Assembly: GCF_003752415.1 (NCBI RefSeq)
Contig: NZ_RKHG01000001.1
Location: 2,294,001-2,358,000, forward strand
Length of the DNA stretch: 64,000 bases
Origin: Luteococcus japonicus
GTDB lineage: Bacteria; Actinomycetota; Actinomycetes; Propionibacteriales; Propionibacteriaceae
Direction: 5' to 3'
The notes under the pieces are model-generated. The model had not been told where the DNA came from, did not search any database, and was given only the letters and a program-made list of their open reading frames with translations. Below are positions 1,392 to 39,126 of this stretch, in pieces. The translations under genes were made by a program, and so were the position numbers. Within the stretch, counting starts at the first letter, position 1. Each line of letters opens with the position of its first letter.

Positions 1392-2399
1392 ATGAAACTT
1401 CCGATCGCGCTGCCCCTGATGCTTGCCCCGATGGCCGGTGGCCCCACCAGCCCGGAACTGCTCGCCGCGGTGACCGCGGCGGGTGCCGGTGGCTTCCTGC
1501 CGGGTGGCTACCTCACGGCAGCCCAGTTGGAGGGTCGGTTGGGGGAGCTGTCGGACCGGATGGTGGCCGCGGGCCTGGGGGATTCGCCCCATGGCGTCAA
1601 TCTCTTCGTCCCGGGACCCACGGACAGGCGCCGCGACGAGAATGCCGTGGCCCTCTACTCACAGCGGCTCGGTGAGGGAGTGGGGAGGCCCGATTGGGGG
1701 GACCGGGACCACTACGAGGACAAGCTGCGGCTCCTGCTGGAGGTGCACCCCGTCGCCATGGTCAGCTTCACCTTCGGCTGCCCGACGGCCGAGGAGGTGA
1801 CCGCCCTGCACCGGGCGGGGAGCCGGGTCCTGGTCACCGTGACCGACGCCGAGGAGGCCCGAGCCGCGGCCGCGGTGGGGGCAGATGCCCTGGTGGCGCA
1901 GGGATTCGACGCGGGCGGCCATCGGGGCACACATGCCGTCACCAAGATCCCCAACCGTCGCGATGCCCTGGCCCTGATCCCCGAGCTGACTGGTCTGGGG
2001 CTCCCGCTCATTGCCGCCGGTGGCGTGGCCACCCGGGGCGATGTACAGCGGCTGCTGGCAGCCGGGGCCGTCGCGGTCCAGGTGGGTACCGCCTTCCTCC
2101 GCTGCCCCGAGGCCGGCACCAGCGCCGCGCACCGTGACCTGCTGGTCACGGCCCGGGGGACGAAGGTCACCAGAGCCTTCAGCGGGCGTCCGGCGCGTGG
2201 GCTGGTCAACGACTTCCTGCTGGCCCACGACGACCAGGCGCCGGCGGTCTACCCGCAGGTGGACCAGATCACCAAGCCGCTGCGGGCCGCGGCCGCGGCC
2301 CGGGGAGACTCCTCGCAGGTCTCCGGCTGGGCGGGCACTGGTTGGGCGGCGGCCCAGGAGGTCCCGGCCGCCGAGGTCATCGCGTCGCTGCTGCCCTGA
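1392..2399 (+). CDS. Nitronate monooxygenase-like flavoprotein
   Basis: This 335-residue protein fits the 2-nitropropane dioxygenase / nitronate monooxygenase family, FMN-dependent TIM barrels that oxidise nitronates. Visible features are the N-terminal LMLAPMAGGP flavin loop, SFTFGCP, the DALVAQGFDAGGHRGTH motif with its conserved His, and the phosphate-binding LIAAGGVATRGD and VQVGTAFL segments. The start is set at ATG 1392, because GGAGG lies 4 nt upstream; an upstream in-frame ATG at 1335 has no ribosome site and would overlap unlikely sequence. The gene is convergent with the PAP2 gene, with only 3 bp between the stop codons. True substrate is unknown; many family members are misnamed. 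Confidence 0.88.
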   Translation: MKLPIALPLMLAPMAGGPTSPELLAAVTAAGAGGFLPGGYLTAAQLEGRLGELSDRMVAAGLGDSPHGVNLFVPGPTDRRRDENAVALYSQRLGEGVGRPDWGDRDHYEDKLRLLLEVHPVAMVSFTFGCPTAEEVTALHRAGSRVLVTVTDAEEARAAAAVGADALVAQGFDAGGHRGTHAVTKIPNRRDALALIPELTGLGLPLIAAGGVATRGDVQRLLAAGAVAVQVGTAFLRCPEAGTSAAHRDLLVTARGTKVTRAFSGRPARGLVNDFLLAHDDQAPAVYPQVDQITKPLRAAAAARGDSSQVSGWAGTGWAAAQEVPAAEVIASLLP

Positions 2400-2402
2400 T
2401 CC

Positions 2403-3314
2403 TCAGATGAGGGCAGCCGCGCGGGCGTCGTGCAGCTGTACCAGCCGCAGCAGCACGCCCATCCCCGCCATCGCGACGCCGCACAGGCCGGCCGCACCGC
2501 CCAGATAGGCGATCAACTGCTCGGAGAAGACAGTGGTGAAGACGTCGTCGACCTGCCAGGTGGCCCAGCCGCAGACCGCGGCCACCCCCGTGGCGATGCA
2601 GCCCAGCAGCACCATCAGGCCCGGGACCGCGCGCGAGGGACGATCGGCCTCCGGGCGGGGCGAATCACCCCACGTGCGGCTGGCCAGCACTCGCTGCCGC
2701 AGCGCACCGACGGCCAGGGCGCCGAAGGCCCAGGCAAAGCAGACCAGGTAGGCACCCACCACGTCCGAGGGGCGGTGCCACTGGGCCGCCAGGGTGCCGT
2801 AGCCGAAGAGCATCATCACCAGCGCGCCCAGCATGGCCACCGGTGCGCGCAGGCTCCTGGGTGCCACCAGCACGGCGGCCACCATGGCCGAGCCGGCAGC
2901 GGTGGTGTGCCCGCTGGGGTAGGAGTTGTGGTGCAGACCCTCCCAGTCCACCAGCAGCGGGCGGTAGAGCAGGTGGTACTTCAGGACCCGGGTGGACAGG
3001 TTGGCGGCCGCCACGAGGGCGGCGGCCTCCAGCGCCAGCATCCAGCGGCGGCGCAGCACGGCCACCAGGGCCACCAGGAGCATCACCAACGCGATGGCCC
3101 CCACCGAGACGGTCTCCAGGACCCGCTGCAGGCGGTCGGCGACGTGGCTCTGGCCGATGGCGGCGCCCAGATAGGCGATGGAGTCCAGCAGCTGGCCGCG
3201 GGTGGTGACGACGAAGAAGCGCCACACACCCAACGTCGCCACCCCCGAGGCGAGGGCCAGCAGCAGCGGACGCACCCAGCGCCACTCGCGGGAGAAAGAG
3301 GTCATGGGGGCCAT
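2403..3314 (-). CDS. PAP2 family phosphatase (membrane)
   Basis: The protein has about 300 residues with an N-terminal helix, a periplasmic stretch and five further helices, as in type 2 phosphatidic acid phosphatases acting on lipid phosphates or undecaprenyl pyrophosphate. The family motifs are visible as the SYPSGHTTAAG block (PSGH) and QWHRPSDVVGAYL (HRPSDV, carrying the catalytic His). The first motif, normally KxxxxxxRP, reads KYHLLYRPL. The start could be ATG 3314 or ATG 3305; neither has a good ribosome site. Long upstream extension of the frame is GC-rich shadow. It is divergent from the HtrA-like gene. Confidence 0.86.
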   Translation of the reverse strand: MAPMTSFSREWRWVRPLLLALASGVATLGVWRFFVVTTRGQLLDSIAYLGAAIGQSHVADRLQRVLETVSVGAIALVMLLVALVAVLRRRWMLALEAAALVAAANLSTRVLKYHLLYRPLLVDWEGLHHNSYPSGHTTAAGSAMVAAVLVAPRSLRAPVAMLGALVMMLFGYGTLAAQWHRPSDVVGAYLVCFAWAFGALAVGALRQRVLASRTWGDSPRPEADRPSRAVPGLMVLLGCIATGVAAVCGWATWQVDDVFTTVFSEQLIAYLGGAAGLCGVAMAGMGVLLRLVQLHDARAAALI

Positions 3315-20829: not shown

Positions 20830-23385
20830 TCAGTGAGGTGTAGTGGTCTGTGTGTGGTGCAGGCCGGCCAGGGCGGCGGCGGCCCGACGGGAGGTCTCCT
20901 CGTCGCGGACGGCGAGCCGGATCCAGACCGGCCCGAGCCCGGGGAAGCTCTCCCCTCGTCGCACCGCGAAACCGGATTCGGCCATCCGCTCCCGGACCCA
21001 GCCGGGGGTGTGGGCCAGGGGACCCAGCGGCGAGGTGTCCACCAGCACGAAGGGTGCCCGCGGATTGGCGACGGGAGGCAGCCCGGCCTCGGTGAGGGCC
21101 CGGACCAGGTGCTCGCGGTCGGCATCGATCCGGTGGGCGATGGTCTGGGTTTGCGCCCGTGCCTCCTCGCGCGCGCACGCCACCATGGCATCCAGCGCCG
21201 GGGTGGCCACCGACCAGGGCGTCTGCAACTCTTCGAGCTGCCGGACCAGCCGGGGATCCCCGACGACGTAGCCGGCCCGGATCCCCGCCAGGCTCCAGGT
21301 CTTGGTGAGCGAGCGCGTCACCAGGATCCCGGTCATCTCCGGCCTGACCAGGGACTCCGGCTCCCCGGGGACGGCATCCATGAAGGCCTCGTCCACCAGC
21401 AGGACGCGTCCCGGCCGGGCAAGCCGGCGCAGCATGGCGGCGGGGTGCAGGACGCCCGTCGGGTTGGTGGGATTGCCCACCACCACCAGGTCTGCCCGGC
21501 CGTCCACCTCGTCGGGGTGCAGCGTGAAGCCGTCCTGCGGCCGCAGGATGTGGCGACGCGGAAGATGCCCGGCCAGCCGTAGCGCCTGCTCCGGCTCGGT
21601 GAACTGCGGGTGCACCACGAGGCTGCACCGGGTGGGCAGCGCGCGGGCGATGAGGGTGAACGCCTCGGCGGCACCGCTGGTGGGCAGCACCATGGCGGGG
21701 TCGAGGCCGTGCAGGGCGGCCAGCGCCTCGCGGGCGGAGCGGGCGTCGGGATAGGCCGCCCAGTTCGGTGCCCGGGAGCAGAGTTCGGCGGCGAGCTGGG
21801 CGGGTGGCTGGTGCGAGCGCACGTTGACCGCCAGGTCCGTCAGTCCGGGAACCAGGTCCCGGTCCCCGTGGTGCGTGAGGTCCGGCTGCTCCGCAACGGT
21901 GGCCGAGCTTGTCGAGGCCTCGGTGGGCCCATCGACAGGCTCGGGGATCGGATGGGGTTGCTCGGGGATCGGATGGGGTGGTTCGGGGGTTGGGTGGGTT
22001 GCGTCTGGGACCCGGTGCTGCGCCGCGGCCTCGGCGAGGCGCTGGGCGGCCTGCGGGAATCCGGCCCAGTGCAGGTGCTGGTAGCTGGCGTGCAGGCTCG
22101 CCGAGCCGACGCCCTCGGCACGCCCGGCAACGTCCCAGGCCACCGAAAGGCCTTCCGCCAGCCCGTCGAGCGGCACGACGGTGCGGTGGAACTCGTGACT
22201 GCGCACCCGCTCGCCGACCCTTGTCAGCAGGGTGTCCGCGGCCGCGACGGGCTCCTTGTAGCCCAGCGTCAGCTTCGGGCTCATCGTCGCGGCCAGGGGC
22301 AGGGCGCCCGTCATCGGCTGGTCGTCGAGGGTCGAGCACAGGTAGAGCAGCCCGGCGCACTCGGCCACCGTCGGCAGGCCGTCGACAACCCGGCGGCGGA
22401 TGTCCTCGCGCAGGGCCTCATTGGCGGACAGCTCACCGGCGAAGACCTCCGGGAAGCCCCCACCCAGGTACAGGCCCGCCGTCGCGGAGGGCAGCGAGGC
22501 GTCGGTCAGCGGGTCGAACTCCACCACCTCACATCCGGCGGCTCGCAACAGCTCGGCGGTCTCGGCATAGCGGAAGGTGAAGGCGCGGCCCGCCGCGACC
22601 GCCACCACCGGACGGCCCTCGACCCGAGTCACCAGTCGCGACGGGTCCCACGCGTCGGCCTCCAGTGGGGCGGCGGCCCGGGCTAGTTCCAGTACCCGGT
22701 CCAGGTCCACGTGCGCCGCCACCAGCTCCCCGGCAGCCTCGACCATGGCGCGGGCCTGGTCACGCTCGGCGGCGGGCACCAGCCCCAGGTGCCGCGACGG
22801 CGTCGTCAGGTCCGGGGACCGTGGCACCGCGCCCACCACGGGAATCCCCAGGTCCTCGATGGCCCGGGTGCACTCGTCGATGTTGCGCTGGCTGCCCGCC
22901 TTGTTGAGGACCACGCCGGCCACCTGCAGGTCATGGTCGAAGCTGGCCATGCCGTGGGCGACCGCCGCAACCGTCGTCGAGCTCTTCGCGGCATCCACCA
23001 CCAGCAGCACGGGGGAGTGGGTCAGCTTGGCGATGTGCGCGCTGGAGCCGAAGGCCGCCCGCCCGACCGGCGGGACGCCCAGCCTGCCGTCGAACAGGCC
23101 CATCGCGCCCTCGATCACCGCAATGTCTGCCTGGCCAGGGGTCCTGGAGCCGTGCAGCAGGAGCGGTGCGATCAGTTCCGGGCCGCAAAGGTGCGCGTCC
23201 AGGTTGCGCCCGGGGTGACCCGTCGCGAGCCCGTGGTAGCCGGGATCGATGTAGTCGGGGCCCGTCTTGAAGGGGGCCACTCGCAGTCCGCGGTCACGCA
23301 GCGCCCGCATCAGGCCCACAGCCAGGGTGGTCTTGCCCGTGCTGGATGACGCCGCACCCAGCACCAGGCGGGGGACTGTCGTCAT
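20830..23385 (-). CDS. Fused cobyrinate a,c-diamide synthase and CobC-type aminotransferase
   Basis: The 851-residue fusion has two halves. Residues 1-450 are CobB/CbiA: P-loop ASSSTGKTT, FKTGPDYIDP, VIEGAMGLFDG, and a GATase domain with Cys in VAECAGLLYL; it amidates cobyrinate side chains a and c. Residues about 505-850 are a class I/II PLP enzyme of the CobC/CobD type, with GAAEAFTLIA, VVGNPTNPTGV, VDEAFMD and the PLP-Lys site TRSLTKTWSLAGIRAGYV; it would supply the aminopropanol-phosphate arm. The linker (about 470-500) contains tandem HPIPEP units and family C repeats. ATG 23385 follows AAAGG, which is buried in a small hairpin below riboswitch 1. It is the first gene of its unit. Confidence 0.93.
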   Translation of the reverse strand: MTTVPRLVLGAASSSTGKTTLAVGLMRALRDRGLRVAPFKTGPDYIDPGYHGLATGHPGRNLDAHLCGPELIAPLLLHGSRTPGQADIAVIEGAMGLFDGRLGVPPVGRAAFGSSAHIAKLTHSPVLLVVDAAKSSTTVAAVAHGMASFDHDLQVAGVVLNKAGSQRNIDECTRAIEDLGIPVVGAVPRSPDLTTPSRHLGLVPAAERDQARAMVEAAGELVAAHVDLDRVLELARAAAPLEADAWDPSRLVTRVEGRPVVAVAAGRAFTFRYAETAELLRAAGCEVVEFDPLTDASLPSATAGLYLGGGFPEVFAGELSANEALREDIRRRVVDGLPTVAECAGLLYLCSTLDDQPMTGALPLAATMSPKLTLGYKEPVAAADTLLTRVGERVRSHEFHRTVVPLDGLAEGLSVAWDVAGRAEGVGSASLHASYQHLHWAGFPQAAQRLAEAAAQHRVPDATHPTPEPPHPIPEQPHPIPEPVDGPTEASTSSATVAEQPDLTHHGDRDLVPGLTDLAVNVRSHQPPAQLAAELCSRAPNWAAYPDARSAREALAALHGLDPAMVLPTSGAAEAFTLIARALPTRCSLVVHPQFTEPEQALRLAGHLPRRHILRPQDGFTLHPDEVDGRADLVVVGNPTNPTGVLHPAAMLRRLARPGRVLLVDEAFMDAVPGEPESLVRPEMTGILVTRSLTKTWSLAGIRAGYVVGDPRLVRQLEELQTPWSVATPALDAMVACAREEARAQTQTIAHRIDADREHLVRALTEAGLPPVANPRAPFVLVDTSPLGPLAHTPGWVRERMAESGFAVRRGESFPGLGPVWIRLAVRDEETSRRAAAALAGLHHTQTTTPH
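21901..21946. repeat. Family C inverted pair in the CobB-CobC linker
   Basis: GGCCGAGCTTGTCGAGGCC (21901-21919) faces CATCGACAGGCTCGGGG (21930-21946). In the minus-strand protein it encodes EPVDGPTEASTSSA, within the fusion linker. Confidence 0.75.
21939..22001. repeat. 21-bp tandem repeat in the CobB-CobC linker
   Basis: Two identical 20-bp cores GCTCGGGGATCGGATGGGGT and one diverged unit in 21-bp steps encode 7-residue repeats of the type HPIPEPx. The array abuts and shares sequence with one arm of the family C repeat. Confidence 0.78.
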
Positions 23386-23439: not shown

Positions 23440-23570
23440 AGCAGTTCGGGGCACGGGGGCAGGCGACCGGGCTCATCCCCCGAAGGGACATCACCGTTGC
23501 GGGACAGCGTCGGATTCACACCGACTTCGCTGGCACACGTGCGCTGGCGTCTGCCAGCGGTCCAACTCTA
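23440..23570 (-). promoter_or_regulatory. Cobalamin riboswitch 1, leader of cobB-C/cobT/cobU/cobS
   Basis: Read on the minus strand, the leader shows the conserved core CCAGCGAAGTCGGTGTGAAT, then CGCTGTCCCGCAACGGTGA and the B12 box GAGCCCGGTCGCCTGCC. These match the cobalamin riboswitch pattern. The aptamer ends about 55 nt upstream of the start codon. Edges are approximate. Confidence 0.9.
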
Positions 23571-23684
23571 GACCCATCGGATACGGCGGTCGCCGGGGCC
23601 CCTGGTGCTGGTTCATGCCGGGATGCTCCCGGGACCTGTGACATGATGCTGCCCGGGGTCGCGCCGCCCCACCCACAATTCCAC

Positions 23685-28950: not shown

Positions 28951-28998
28951 GCGCTCCCCTTGTCGGGCCGCATCCGCGCTAGGGTGGGCGGAGCACGA

Positions 28999-29115
28999 GG
29001 TGCCCCGATCGGCCAGTCCGGGAGGGGAGAATCTGGGAAGCCGGTGGGAGTCCGGCACAGGCCCGCTGCGGTGATCGACGAAAGTCGTCAGTCCGAAGAC
29101 CGGCCTCGCGCATTT
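28999..29115 (+). promoter_or_regulatory. Cobalamin riboswitch 3, leader of the ChlI-ChlD gene
   Basis: Conserved blocks are GGGAAGCCGGTGGGAGTCCG, GCACAGGCCCGCTGCGGTGA and the B12 box AGTCCGAAGACCGGCC. GAGGTGCC at 28997 lies at the 5' side. The aptamer ends about 30 nt before the start codon, which fits control of translation initiation. Confidence 0.93.
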
Positions 29116-29145
29116 CCTGTCCGGCAACGAATGAGCGGGAGCCTC

Positions 29146-34977: not shown

Positions 34978-34989
34978 AACGTGGGCATG

Positions 34990-35096
34990 GACTCACCCGA
35001 CGTCCAGTGTCTGGCTTGCCCTCGTAGGGCTTCACAGTGGCGGAACCGCCCCGGGATCTCACCGGGTTCCTGGGCCGTGGGCTGCGACCAGCCTAG
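34990..35096 (-). promoter_or_regulatory. Cobalamin riboswitch 4, leader of cobN
   Basis: On the minus strand the core reads GGCGGTTCCGCCACTGTGAA, then GGGCAAGCCAGACACTGGA as B12 box. The 5' part is GGAACCCGGTGAGATCCCGG. It lies between cobO and cobN and ends about 45 nt before the cobN start. Confidence 0.93.
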
Positions 35097-35109
35097 CGGG
35101 AACGGGGAC

Positions 35110-35715
35110 TCACCACTCGATGCCCGCCTGCCCCTTGGCGCCGGTGTCGAAGGGGTGCTTGATCTTGGTCATCTCGGTGACCAGGTCGGCGGCGTCGAGC
35201 ACCTGCTGCGGCATCCGTCGACCGGTCATCACGACATGCTGGGTGCCGGGCCGGTTGCGCAGGGTCTCGAGCACCTCGTCGACGTCGAGCCAGCCATTGG
35301 CCAGCACATAGCTGAACTCGTCGAGCACGTACAGATCATGCGTCTCGTTCGCGAGCTGTTCGCTGATCCGCGCCCAGCCCTCCTTGCTCATCGCGACGTG
35401 GTCCACCTCCTTGGTGGAGCGCAGCCAGGTCCATCCGGCACCCATCGCATGCCACTCCACCGGACCGCCCTGACCGGTCTGCTCGTGCACCTCGTTCAGC
35501 GCGGCGAAGGCGGCCTTCTCCCCGGTGCGCCAGTTCGGCGACTTCACGAACTGGTACACGCCGATGCTCCAGCCCTGGTTCCAGCCGCGCAGCGCCATCC
35601 CGAAGGCGGCCGTCGACTTGCCCTTGCCGTCGCCGGTGTTGACGATCAGCCGCGGTTGGTGGCGCAGCTGGCGGGTGGTGAGCTTCTCGTCCTTGACCGG
35701 TGGGGTGCCCTGCAT
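35110..35715 (-). CDS. cobO: Cob(I)yrinic acid a,c-diamide adenosyltransferase
   Basis: The 201-residue CobO/BtuR family protein adds the adenosyl group to the upper face of cobalt. The ATP-binding loop is IVNTGDGKGKSTAA (residues 24-37), followed by GVYQFVKSPNWRTGE, DLYVLDEFSYVL and the C-terminal MTKIKHPFDTGAKGQAGIEW. GAGGAG is 7 nt before ATG 35715, and only 1 nt separates it from the cobQ stop. It is the last gene of the cbiB/cobQ/cobO unit. Confidence 0.96.
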   Translation of the reverse strand: MQGTPPVKDEKLTTRQLRHQPRLIVNTGDGKGKSTAAFGMALRGWNQGWSIGVYQFVKSPNWRTGEKAAFAALNEVHEQTGQGGPVEWHAMGAGWTWLRSTKEVDHVAMSKEGWARISEQLANETHDLYVLDEFSYVLANGWLDVDEVLETLRNRPGTQHVVMTGRRMPQQVLDAADLVTEMTKIKHPFDTGAKGQAGIEW

Positions 35716-35716
35716 G

Positions 35717-37237
35717 TCAGTTCTCCTCTGGGGTGGGGTGGGTGAGGGCCAGCAGGGCGTCGACGTCCAGCTGCTCCTCGATGGCATCGGCCAATGTCTC
35801 GATCATTCGTTCCCGCAAGGCACCGAATCCCGGTGCGTCTGCGGTGGGACGCCACGGATGCCCCGCCTGGTCGGCGACGCGGGTGAGCCAGGCGCGGCGG
35901 AACTCGTCGTGCTCCAGCGCCCCGTGCCAGTGGGTGCCCCAGGTGGGGCCCACCCGCATCCCGTCCAGGAAGCGCTCGTCGGGTTCGGCGAGGGTGGTCG
36001 GGCGGCCGTGGTGGATCTCGTAGCCGATGGTCTGGTGGCCCTGCCAGCTACCGGTGGGGCGGGCCAGCACCTTGCCCGGGTGGAAGTCGACGCGCAGCGG
36101 CAGCAGGTCCAACCCCTCGACAGGCTCGTGCGTCGTGGGGCTGCGGCCGGCGGCGGGCTTCCCGGTGGCCGAGCCTGTCGAGGCCTGTTCCACCTCGTCG
36201 ACTATCAGCTTCCCGAGCATCTGGTAGCCGCCGCAGATCCCCAGGGTCGCGCGCCCGGCGGCATGCCGCTGGGCCACCACCCGGTCGATCCCCCGGGCCC
36301 GCAACCAGGCCAGGTCGTCGATGGTGGCGCGCGTGCCGGGCAGCACCAGCAGGTCCGCGCGGGCGCAGACGGCCGGGTCCGCGGTCACCGTCACGTGCAC
36401 GCCCGGCTCGGCGGCCAGGGCATCGACATCGGTGGCATTGCTGACCCGCGGCAGCCGCACCACGGCCACCTCCAACGCACGTTCGGCGTGGTGGGGTGTG
36501 GTTCCGGCGCGGTGCCAGGCGCCGATCGCCAGGGCATCCTCGCCATCCAGCCAGACACCCTCCAGCCAGTTGAGGACACCGAAGTTGGCCAGCCCGGTCA
36601 GTTCGCTGATCCGGGTCAGGCCGGGGGCCAGCACCTCGGGGTCGCCGCGGAACTTGTTGATCACATAGCCCTTCAGCAGGCCACGGTCCGCATCGTCGAG
36701 CAGCGCCCAGGTGCCGTAGATGCTGGCCAGGACCCCACCACGGTCGATGTCTCCCACCAGGACCACCGGCATCCCGAACTGGCGGGCCAGTCCCATGTTC
36801 ACGTAGTCGCCGGAACGCAGGTTGACCTCGGCCGGGGAGCCGGCGCCCTCACAGACCACGAGCTCGTGGGCGGCCTCCAGCTCCCGTAAGGACTCGAAGG
36901 CGGCGGCCGCCAGATGCCCCCGCCCGGTGGCGTACTGGCCGGCCTCCAGCGTCCCGTCGGGCTGGCCGCGCAGCACGACGTGGGCCCGACGGTCGGTCCC
37001 CGGCTTGATCAGCACCGGGTTCATGGCGGTGGTGGGCTCCACCCGGGCGGCGACGGCCTGCAGGTACTGGGCGCGGCCGATCTCACCGTCGGCCACCACC
37101 ATGGAGTTGTTGCTCATGTTCTGCGCCTTGAAGGGCGCCACGTCGATGCCGCGGCGGCGCAGGGCCCGGCACAGGCCCGTCACCACCAGGGACTTGCCGG
37201 CATCGGAGGAGGTGCCGGTCACCAGGATTCCCGTCAT
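35717..37237 (-). CDS. cobQ: Cobyric acid synthase
   Basis: The 506-residue amidotransferase amidates side chains b, d, e and g of adenosylcobyrinate a,c-diamide. The synthase half shows GTSSDAGKS, FKAQNMSNNS and VVCEGAGSPAEVNL; the glutaminase half has Cys in LGICGGYQMLG and His in GTHWHGALEHD. An in-frame insertion after VEQ, encoding ASTGSATGKPAAGRSPTTHE and PVEG, comes from a family C pair and sits between the Cys and the next conserved block. ATG 37237 overlaps the cbiB stop. Confidence 0.96.
   Translation of the reverse strand: MTGILVTGTSSDAGKSLVVTGLCRALRRRGIDVAPFKAQNMSNNSMVVADGEIGRAQYLQAVAARVEPTTAMNPVLIKPGTDRRAHVVLRGQPDGTLEAGQYATGRGHLAAAAFESLRELEAAHELVVCEGAGSPAEVNLRSGDYVNMGLARQFGMPVVLVGDIDRGGVLASIYGTWALLDDADRGLLKGYVINKFRGDPEVLAPGLTRISELTGLANFGVLNWLEGVWLDGEDALAIGAWHRAGTTPHHAERALEVAVVRLPRVSNATDVDALAAEPGVHVTVTADPAVCARADLLVLPGTRATIDDLAWLRARGIDRVVAQRHAAGRATLGICGGYQMLGKLIVDEVEQASTGSATGKPAAGRSPTTHEPVEGLDLLPLRVDFHPGKVLARPTGSWQGHQTIGYEIHHGRPTTLAEPDERFLDGMRVGPTWGTHWHGALEHDEFRRAWLTRVADQAGHPWRPTADAPGFGALRERMIETLADAIEEQLDVDALLALTHPTPEEN
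36113..36185. repeat. Family C inverted pair inside cobQ
   Basis: CCCCTCGACAGGCTCG (36113-36128) and GGCCGAGCCTGTCGAGGCC (36167-36185) are inverted with 38 bp between, encoding extra low-complexity residues in CobQ. Confidence 0.78.
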
Positions 37238-38199
37238 CGGGCGTTCCTCTCGTCGGACTCGTGGTCGGTTCTCATGACGGCGGCCAGCGCAAGGGCCGAC
37301 GCGGCCAGCGCCGCGGCCTCCTGCACGCGGCGTGCCAGGGCGGAGGCCCGCCGCAGGTCCGCGGCGACGGGGCGGGGGCCGTCCCCCAGTAGCCCGCGGT
37401 GCTCCACACGGCCCCCGGGGTAGACATTGCGGCCACCCAGCTGCACGCCCAGCGCCCCGGCAAAGGCGGACTCGCACCACCCGCCATTGGGGCTGGGATG
37501 GTCATGGGCGTCGCGGCGCATCGTCTGCCAGGCAACGGATCTCCGTGTGCCAGCCAGCCCGCAGGCGAGCGCCCCCGTGATCCTGGCCGGCAGCCAGCAG
37601 GCGGCGTCGTCGAGCCGGGCCGCCACCATCCCGAAGTTCTCGTAGCGCTCGTTGTGGTGGCCCACCATGGCATCCAGCGTGTTGATGCCGCGGTGCACCA
37701 GCAGGCCGGGAACCCCGGACACCGCACCCCAGAAGAGGGGAGCCACCACCGCATCGGCGGTGTTCTCCGCCACGGATTCCAGCGCGGCGCGGGCCAACTC
37801 CGGCTCGTCGAGCTCGTCGGCCTGGCGCCCGCACAGCCAGGACAGCCGGTTTCGGGCCGCGGCCAGGTCTCCGTCCGCCAGGAAGGTGGCCATCGTCTCG
37901 CCCTCCCGGGCCAGCGAGGAACCTCCGGTGACGGCCCAGGTGGCAAGCGCGGTCAGCGCCACCTGGGCCGCTGGGTGCCTGCGGCCCACGGCTTCGGCGG
38001 CCACCCCGAGTGCGACAAGTGGAGCCAGACTGAGTGTCACGTGCCCCACGCCCGCGGCACGGGAGTCTCGGTAGTCGTGCGCTTCGAGGGCCGCGGCCCA
38101 CGTGCCGAACCAGGCCACCGGATGGTGCCGTTGCGGGTCGGGGATCACCCGGTCCGCAACGGTTCCCAATAGCAGGCCCACCGCTCGCGCCCAGATCAC
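37234..38199 (-). CDS. cbiB: Adenosylcobinamide-phosphate synthase (CbiB/CobD)
   Basis: The 321-residue membrane protein attaches (R)-1-amino-2-propanol or its phosphate to adenosylcobyrate. It shows the family N-terminus GLLLGTVADRVIPDPQRHHPVAWFG, AALESVAENTADAVVAPLFWG, GINTLDAMVGHHNERYENFG and NGGWCESAFAGALGVQLGG. Start is GTG 38199, with only 23 bp to the divergent cobC start. The unit cbiB/cobQ/cobO has no local room for a leader, and riboswitch 5 lies about 660 nt upstream beyond cobC. Confidence 0.94.
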   Translation of the reverse strand: MIWARAVGLLLGTVADRVIPDPQRHHPVAWFGTWAAALEAHDYRDSRAAGVGHVTLSLAPLVALGVAAEAVGRRHPAAQVALTALATWAVTGGSSLAREGETMATFLADGDLAAARNRLSWLCGRQADELDEPELARAALESVAENTADAVVAPLFWGAVSGVPGLLVHRGINTLDAMVGHHNERYENFGMVAARLDDAACWLPARITGALACGLAGTRRSVAWQTMRRDAHDHPSPNGGWCESAFAGALGVQLGGRNVYPGGRVEHRGLLGDGPRPVAADLRRASALARRVQEAAALAASALALAAVMRTDHESDERNAR

Positions 38200-38210
38200 A
38201 GCGCCCCCAC

Positions 38211-38216
38211 TAGGGT
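38211..38216 (+). promoter_or_regulatory. Leaderless-type -10 site for cobC
   Basis: TAGGGT ends 6 nt before ATG 38223 and no ribosome site is present. Confidence 0.5.
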
Positions 38217-38222
38217 TGATGC

Positions 38223-38786
38223 ATGCAGCTCGTCCTCGTCCGGCACGGCCAGAGCACCTGGAACCTCGAACATCGCCTTCAGGGGCAGACGCTCGGGGTG
38301 CCCCTCACCGAACTGGGGCGAACCCAGGCTCGGGAAGCCGCCGAACGCGTCGCCGCCCTCGTTCCGGCCGGCACGCCAGTGCTGACCAGCGACCAACTGC
38401 GCGCCGTCCAGACCGCCGAACCCATTGCCGCGGCCCTGTGCGTGACGCCGCGGCGCACCGAGGCGCTGCGCGAACAGGCGCTGGGAGAGCTGGAGGGCCG
38501 GCTGACCAGCGAACTCGCCGCCGAACCCGTCCCGGAGGGGCTGCACATCAGCGAGGTCTGCTGGGGTGGTGGGGAATCCATCGAGCAGGTCCACCTGCGC
38601 TGCAGGCTGCTGCTGGCCCGGCTGGCCGACGAGTATCCGGATGCTCCGGCATTGGTCCTGGTGGGGCACGGCGACAGCCTGCGTGTCCTGTTGGCGGTGC
38701 TGGACGGCCGGGGTCATCGTGACGTGGAGTGGGGCGTGGTCGGCAACGGGAAGGTCATCGCCCGCAGCTGGAATCCAGCCGGTTGA
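38223..38786 (+). CDS. cobC: Histidine phosphatase family protein, probable alpha-ribazole phosphatase
   Basis: The 187-residue protein has the catalytic [10 protein letters not shown] (His8), [33 protein letters not shown], the Glu motif ELEGRLTSE, and the second catalytic His in [14 protein letters not shown]. Its place next to cbiB suggests it removes phosphate from alpha-ribazole phosphate or adenosylcobalamin phosphate (CobC role), although the fold alone does not prove it. It looks leaderless. The whole gene is antisense to the transcript expected from riboswitch 5. Confidence 0.82.
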
Positions 38787-38854
38787 CAGCATCTCTCGTC
38801 CTTCGCGAGCGGGGCGAAGGGACGAACCGTCCGCCCTGTCGCCGAGGGCAGTGA

Positions 38855-38990
38855 GGCGCGCCGAGGCCAGGCGACCGGGCTCATCCCCAACCCTGGTAGA
38901 AGGGTGGGGCATCACCGTTGCGGGACAGCGCCGGGTTCACACCGGCTTCGCTGGGCAGCGACGCGCTGGCATTGGCCAGCACCAGACACC
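38855..38990 (-). promoter_or_regulatory. Cobalamin riboswitch 5, antisense to cobC
   Basis: The minus strand reads CCAGCGAAGCCGGTGTGAAC, CGCTGTCCCGCAACGGTGA and the B12 box GAGCCCGGTCGCCTGGCC, nearly identical to riboswitch 1. Downstream on the minus strand is a bulged hairpin at about 38796-38825 (CGTCCCTTCG with CGAAGGACG). The next same-strand gene is cbiB, 656 nt further on, with the plus-strand cobC gene between. Confidence 0.9.
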
Positions 38991-39037
38991 CTAGACCCCC
39001 GCTGACGGACCGGACCGGCGGGGCCATGGTCGGCCGG

Positions 39038-39126
39038 CCACGAGAATCGACCGACAGTCCTCCGGGCTCGTGCCCCGCCCGCGGGGGACCTCTGCCGGCC
39101 GCGCAGGCGCGGGTTGATTTCCGTGG
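39038..39126. repeat. Family A inverted-arm element, copy 4 (89 bp)
   Basis: Left arm CCACGAGAATCGACC, right arm GGTTGATTTCCGTGG. It lies between riboswitch 5 (minus) and uppP (plus), a divergent gap. Confidence 0.82.

Follow-up and report, generated by a model that had tools for sequence, protein, structure and literature searches.

A cobalamin riboswitch of Luteococcus japonicus appears to control the translation of a relay frame that lies on the back of cobC and passes ribosomes to cbiB; we put the probability of this reading at roughly 70%. The output of the minus-strand B12 riboswitch would be a start codon. At low B12 a Shine-Dalgarno (SD) sequence at 38806-38799 would be free, and ribosomes initiating at the ATG at 38792 would read 198 codons antisense to cobC, terminate in a GTGA overlap and restart on cbiB, with cobQ following through an ATGA overlap. 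At high B12 the SD would be masked, the long leader would stay untranslated and cbiB-cobQ-cobO would be silent; the untranslated leader would probably be lost, to decay or, we infer, to Rho. Positions are those of the window, the whole stretch of 64,000 nucleotides of L. japonicus DNA that was analysed.

Anatomy of the locus

The Rfam covariance model RF00174 matches the minus strand at 38946-38875 with 31.5 bits, exactly its gathering score (E-value 6.9e-6 in a search of 1.3 kb, 4.4e-6 in the whole genome). This is the weakest of the ten cobalamin matches in the genome, and it is absent from the RF00174 listing when the entire 64-kb window is scanned. The conserved part of the predicted aptamer (CAGCGAAG...CGCCTG) spans 38868-38953 on the minus strand, with the Rfam core at 38875-38946, and the conserved core is common to a second copy in the same genome, at 23.5 kb. 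By the RF00174 cut-off the element is classed as a cobalamin riboswitch, and the original prediction of an intact minus-strand aptamer behind cobC is borne out. A role as an upstream element of cobC was rejected, as the riboswitch lies on the wrong strand. The window holds three further cobalamin riboswitches, at 23441-23573 (minus strand), 28981-29122 (plus strand) and 34985-35121 (minus strand).

A -10-like promoter motif found in a TANNNT scan (TAGGGT, 38988-38993, minus strand) is located 40 nt 5′ of CAGCGAAG. The 75 nt between the aptamer end and the ATG (38793-38867, minus strand) make up the putative expression platform. When these nucleotides are folded together with the first codons, the minimum-energy structure pairs much of the SD region; by such minimum-energy folds alone, the SD is largely paired at the L. 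japonicus locus, though not at every other locus. An intrinsic terminator was rejected as the expression platform, since a scan of the minus strand between 38100 and 39400 found no terminator-like site. The single terminator-like site in that interval is on the plus strand (39099-39112), between cobC and uppP.

The SD-like motif identified by motif scan (GCGAAGGA, 38799-38806, minus strand) is followed by the ATG at 38792, which comes 14 nt after the first base of GCGAAGGACG, the SD-like sequence read from 38806. The frame opened by this ATG (38196-38792, minus strand) is antisense to the whole of cobC and ends in a TGA (38198-38196) that forms the GTGA overlap with the cbiB start at 38199. 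Next in line on the minus strand are cbiB, encoding adenosylcobinamide-phosphate synthase (37234-38199; NCBIfam NF002276, 395 bits, cut-off 381; TIGR00380, 186.2 bits, cut-off 165.9), cobQ for cobyric acid synthase (35717-37237), whose ATG overlaps the cbiB stop (ATGA), and cobO for cob(I)yrinic acid a,c-diamide adenosyltransferase (35110-35715). The cobQ and cobO proteins were assigned by NCBIfam scores above the respective cut-offs; the starts of both genes were read off the sequence. The cbiB GTG is preceded by a G-rich stretch, GTGGGGGCGCT, which could allow direct ribosome binding at cbiB.

The cobC gene (38223-38786, plus strand) is thus embedded in the relay frame. Its product matches Pfam His_Phos_1 with 126 bits, which makes it a histidine phosphatase, and scores 67.1 bits against the alpha-ribazole phosphatase CobC model TIGR03162, below the curated cut-off of 162.9, so that only the superfamily is assigned and the name cobC rests on context. 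The gene has a -10-like motif of its own (TAGGGT, 38211-38216, plus strand, motif scan) 6 nt 5′ of its ATG, in the 23-nt gap to cbiB, and its transcript is probably leaderless. The gene order had been foreseen correctly: cobC follows the aptamer on the opposite strand, with cbiB, cobQ and cobO beyond it from 38199.

Conservation in the family

Among 117 sampled genomes of the family, 74 contain cbiB. Of the cbiB loci, 70 were examined together with 0.8 to 3.6 kb of upstream sequence; a few partial or distant matches (e.g. G098, G114, G031 and G048) were left out. cobC and cbiB are arranged head-to-head at 15 of the 70 loci (with a gap of ∼ 450 nt in L016), and at eight of these 15, L. japonicus counted, the strand of cbiB has a cobalamin-clan match on the far side of cobC. 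The eight are L. japonicus, its congener L060, L063 (genome G012), L064 (G037) and L017, L024, L029 and L019, apparently four species of Propionibacterium; they stem from only four genera. L019 belongs to G066, which we take to be Propionibacterium freudenreichii DSM 20271. Rfam scores fall under the family cut-offs at four of the loci (L060, L063, L064 and L019). The aptamer core is nearly invariant in the alignment at seven of the eight; that a core-pattern search retrieves these seven at zero mismatches follows by construction, as these loci are part of the alignment that yielded the pattern. Run across the order, the same pattern detected 12 additional loci; in none of them does cobC lie behind the switch. 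A profile search with the cobC alignment gave 80 loci, with cbiB nearby in three.

A GCGAAGG-type motif is found at seven of the eight loci, L064 being the one without it. The first start codon after the motif is in register with the cobC codons in all seven, and the frame is open through cobC to cbiB. The distance from relay start to cobC stop (3, 6, 33, 93 or 147 nt) is always a multiple of three; an in-register start has a chance of 1/3 per locus, and the seven loci represent three genera. The relay starts of L048, L064 and L217 were chosen outside the motif script, by visual inspection or in one follow-up, and are excluded from this count. GCGAAGG was rejected as a general trait of the ten riboswitches of the L. 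japonicus genome: 3′ of the aptamer only the copy at 38868-38953 has it, and the copy at cobB reads CGAAAGG.

The relay ends differ. An overlap with the cbiB start is seen in L. japonicus (GTGA), L017 and L024 (both ATGA). At the other five loci (L060, L063, L019, L029 and L064) the relay is in frame with cbiB with no stop between, so the overlap mechanism is not uniform among the members; in these relatives an extended CbiB or internal initiation would be expected. N-terminally extended CbiB proteins are possible at all five (relay plus cbiB amounts to 532 codons in L029 and 548 in L019), and annotation may hide the extension; the L060 contig ends within cbiB. In L064 a 379-codon gene for a NicT-type nickel transporter (1578-2717, minus strand; 451.5 bits, cut-off 450) sits between switch and cobC, and the antisense frame starts in an overlap with the stop of this gene.

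Head-to-head loci without an aptamer have at least one stop in the register frame in seven of seven cases. One of them, L048 (G026), carries an SD and an ATG at the same place, and the first stop in its register frame (oriented positions 1943-2455) is a TGA 6 nt 5′ of the cbiB ATG. No aptamer is recognizable there; a relay may thus exist without a riboswitch.

Promoter motifs were compared using one cbiB start per locus (up to three in an earlier motif scan). TANNNT is present 5′ of the aptamer at all seven loci with a directly adjacent switch and begins 37-43 nt 5′ of CAGCGAAG in six of them (18 nt in L063); shuffled 75-mers of the seven loci give a match at 37-43 in 1-8%. No TANNNT occurs within 60 nt 5′ of the chosen cbiB start at any of the eight aptamer-bearing loci, and at the six head-to-head loci with neither aptamer nor relay start it is found 12-13 nt 5′ of cbiB in every case. 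In L048, grouped here with the relay loci, TANNNT occurs twice within 60 nt, in neither case at the leaderless position. From this pattern cbiB seems to rely on a promoter beyond cobC. A riboswitch-controlled cbiB leader antisense to cobC, as originally predicted, is most likely present, given the conserved layout and these motifs; what the prediction missed is that the leader is probably more than untranslated RNA, with an SD-like motif before a frame that crosses cobC and joins cbiB.

The same riboswitch subclass occurs in other arrangements. An Rfam scan of 11 further loci shows where the switch directly precedes cbiB. In G030 and G099 it would start cbiB directly (GCGAAGGACGTACGG followed by GTG, the start 41 nt after the aptamer), and in G011 it would start a 24-codon frame that ends in an ATGA overlap with cbiB. 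At the L. japonicus cobB copy (cobB by NCBIfam) the start (23385) comes 74 nt after the aptamer, compared with 75 nt at the relay copy. The cobB frame (20830-23385, minus strand) is about 850 codons long, nearly twice the usual CobB, and may be a fusion. Read from the DNA, the predicted arrangements form a series of direct start, short relay and long relay on the back of cobC. The relay probably originated when cobC, in reverse orientation, ended up between the riboswitch and a gene that the switch was already serving. A second copy of the switch in G030 (L217, G030:C22, 1310-2094) is followed by an in-register frame antisense to cobC, which ends over the TTG start of cobT (Pfam DBI_PRT); by eye, GGAGGGAG would serve as SD before a GTG start, and there is no GCGAAGG motif.

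Codon choice and alternative readings

In GC-rich genomes, L. japonicus included, an open antisense frame proves nothing alone. Given the protein and the codon usage, the register frame would be open by chance with P 0.63 in L. japonicus cobC, 0.51 in G066 and 0.40 in G037, and control cobC genes elsewhere in the family are equally open in 10 of 30 rows (8 of 26 genomes; three rows exceed 500 codons). On the first of these values the open frame of L. japonicus was rejected as proof of the relay. The cobC of G012 (51% GC) has TTA, CTA or TCA at none of its 28 Leu and Ser codons, with 7.5-7.7 expected (P about 1e-4); in this genome TTA and CTA make up 33% of Leu codons and TCA 16% of Ser codons. 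Other A-ending codons show normal use in this gene (34 of 123; the genome sample gives 0.268). A frame open over the first 190 codons occurs in none of 141 G012 genes sampled, and a frame open from end to end in one of 154. An equally long open run somewhere is present in four of 154, one of which is the relay-cbiB frame, taken by a simple gene caller instead of cobC. In G026, the genome of L048, P is 0.005 for the run and 0.017 for the count; here an equally long run occurs in 19 of 110 genes of at least 150 codons. With equal runs at these frequencies the open-run test alone is weak, and the strong codon evidence comes from one genome only, G012. A second antisense frame of the G012 cobC is also stop-free (L063, 1943-2494; 3.6 stops expected, P 0.011), and this is unexplained by the relay. 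The +1 antisense frame at L063 ends in the cbiB ATGA, yet the SD-led start sits in the other frame.

The sequences show the layout, the extent to which it is conserved and, in one cobC (G012), codons that keep the back strand free of stops; transcription, translation, the response to ligand, reinitiation and the action of Rho at the locus we infer. The original prediction likened the locus to an excludon, in which the long leader of one gene is antisense to a neighbour of opposed function. At low B12 the cbiB leader would silence cobC by antisense pairing or by collision of transcription, its translation being irrelevant. By gene layout alone this anatomy, a long leader over a divergent neighbour, is present: the whole of cobC would lie under the leader, the gap contains a -10-like motif for cobC, the minus strand lacks a terminator-like site as described above, and antisense-acting cobalamin riboswitches are a described class, with 81 nt here between the aptamer end (38868) and the end of cobC (38786) on the opposite strand, 3′ of the gene and inside the < 500 nt used for that class. 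However, an untranslated leader predicts neither the SD-like motif with an in-register start at all seven motif loci, nor the missing TTA, CTA and TCA codons in G012, nor the overlap with cobT in G030, and silencing a B12-synthesis gene at low B12 would be counter-productive. By annotation cobC and cbiB sit in one pathway, B12 synthesis, and an opposition between them would be metabolically odd. The comparative evidence points to cbiB as the target of the switch. We therefore regard the excludon as not the best reading and as unlikely on its own; it may hold in addition to the translational relay, which we prefer, but it leaves the frame evidence unpredicted. A combined version has somewhat better prospects, doubtful as it is: one RNA would do two jobs, feeding cbiB through the relay and opposing cobC output to cbiB by occupying the back strand, and the need for a stop-free frame would have shaped the codon choice of cobC.

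The layout could also be fortuitous, with the riboswitch a relic or serving a small local product, an internal cobC promoter driving cbiB, and high GC accounting for the open frame. Open register frames are indeed common in GC-rich genes, and a weak promoter inside cobC would be beyond the reach of consensus scans, but layout, start register and platform are conserved across genera and the G012 codon test argues against it; we rate this reading as quite improbable. Least credible of all is a separate function for the product of the frame, either as an independent protein or as a working N-terminal domain of CbiB, with the relay coming second. The frame does run stop-free into cbiB at five loci (L060, L063, L019, L029 and L064), but no Pfam domain was matched in any of five relay frames tested, that of L. 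japonicus included, the length varies from 184 to 253 codons, and sister genera do without the frame.

Implications and comparison with known systems

If the relay operates as proposed, a riboswitch acts on a target ∼ 670 nt away via a translated relay on the back of another gene, which would explain how a translational switch retains control once a gene intervenes. A small-molecule switch might then constrain the coding sequence of a gene not its own, with the cobC DNA kept stop-free on both strands, and silent mutations could be used to ask if the translation of antisense frames serves a purpose. The genus Propionibacterium, used in industry, shares this layout, and its cbiB riboswitch has already found use as a sensor, so that the finding bears on B12 output there. 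The L. japonicus leader resembles that of an excludon in being antisense to a neighbour and differs from it in that it appears to be translated. A literature search for a riboswitch-started relay antisense to a gene gave none among the matches listed (open-licence papers).

The published systems are compared here from excerpts of the papers cited. A riboswitch upstream of P. freudenreichii cbiB (cobD) has been published, and these excerpts mention neither an antisense cobC nor a relay frame (PMC5644110, PMC11494915, PMC8123684); a 213-bp piece of this switch, used with gfp, is reported to work as a B12 sensor (PMC8123684). If G066 is P. freudenreichii, that riboswitch is the one at L019, and it is probably orthologous to the L. 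japonicus switch. Antisense-acting riboswitches have been surveyed, with ubiG-mccBA (SAM) and pocR (B12) as examples and a position behind a gene, on the opposite strand and within 500 nt, as the criterion; a word search of the main text of the survey finds neither cobC nor cbiB named (PMC9943018). In ubiG-mccBA and pocR the antisense RNA controls the gene that it covers (PMC9943018), whereas the L. japonicus RNA most likely serves as mRNA for the gene on its far side, cbiB. A long frame embedded antisense in a gene is likewise found in pop/ompA of Escherichia coli O157 (PMC7103648); the L. japonicus frame differs in its link to a start codon that follows a riboswitch and to the next gene downstream.

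In Mycobacterium tuberculosis the ppe2 B12 riboswitch acts through uPPE2 and an AUGA overlap, as demonstrated with reporters and tags, and the authors propose that a gene invaded a riboswitch-cob locus (PMC11260477). The arrangement in L. japonicus is alike: the SD and start after the switch belong to an upstream frame, which meets the next gene in a GUGA stop-start overlap. As in ppe2/uPPE2, the B12 riboswitch would mask the SD of the upstream frame and not that of the protein gene, here proposed from sequence (PMC11260477). The two differ in the overlap itself (AUGA in ppe2, GTGA in L. japonicus) and in that ppe2 is without an obvious SD of its own, whereas L. japonicus cbiB has the G-rich stretch upstream (PMC11260477). 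Finally, uPPE2 is short and lies in a free leader (PMC11260477), whereas the L. japonicus relay takes up about 200 codons and runs antisense to a gene that is intact.
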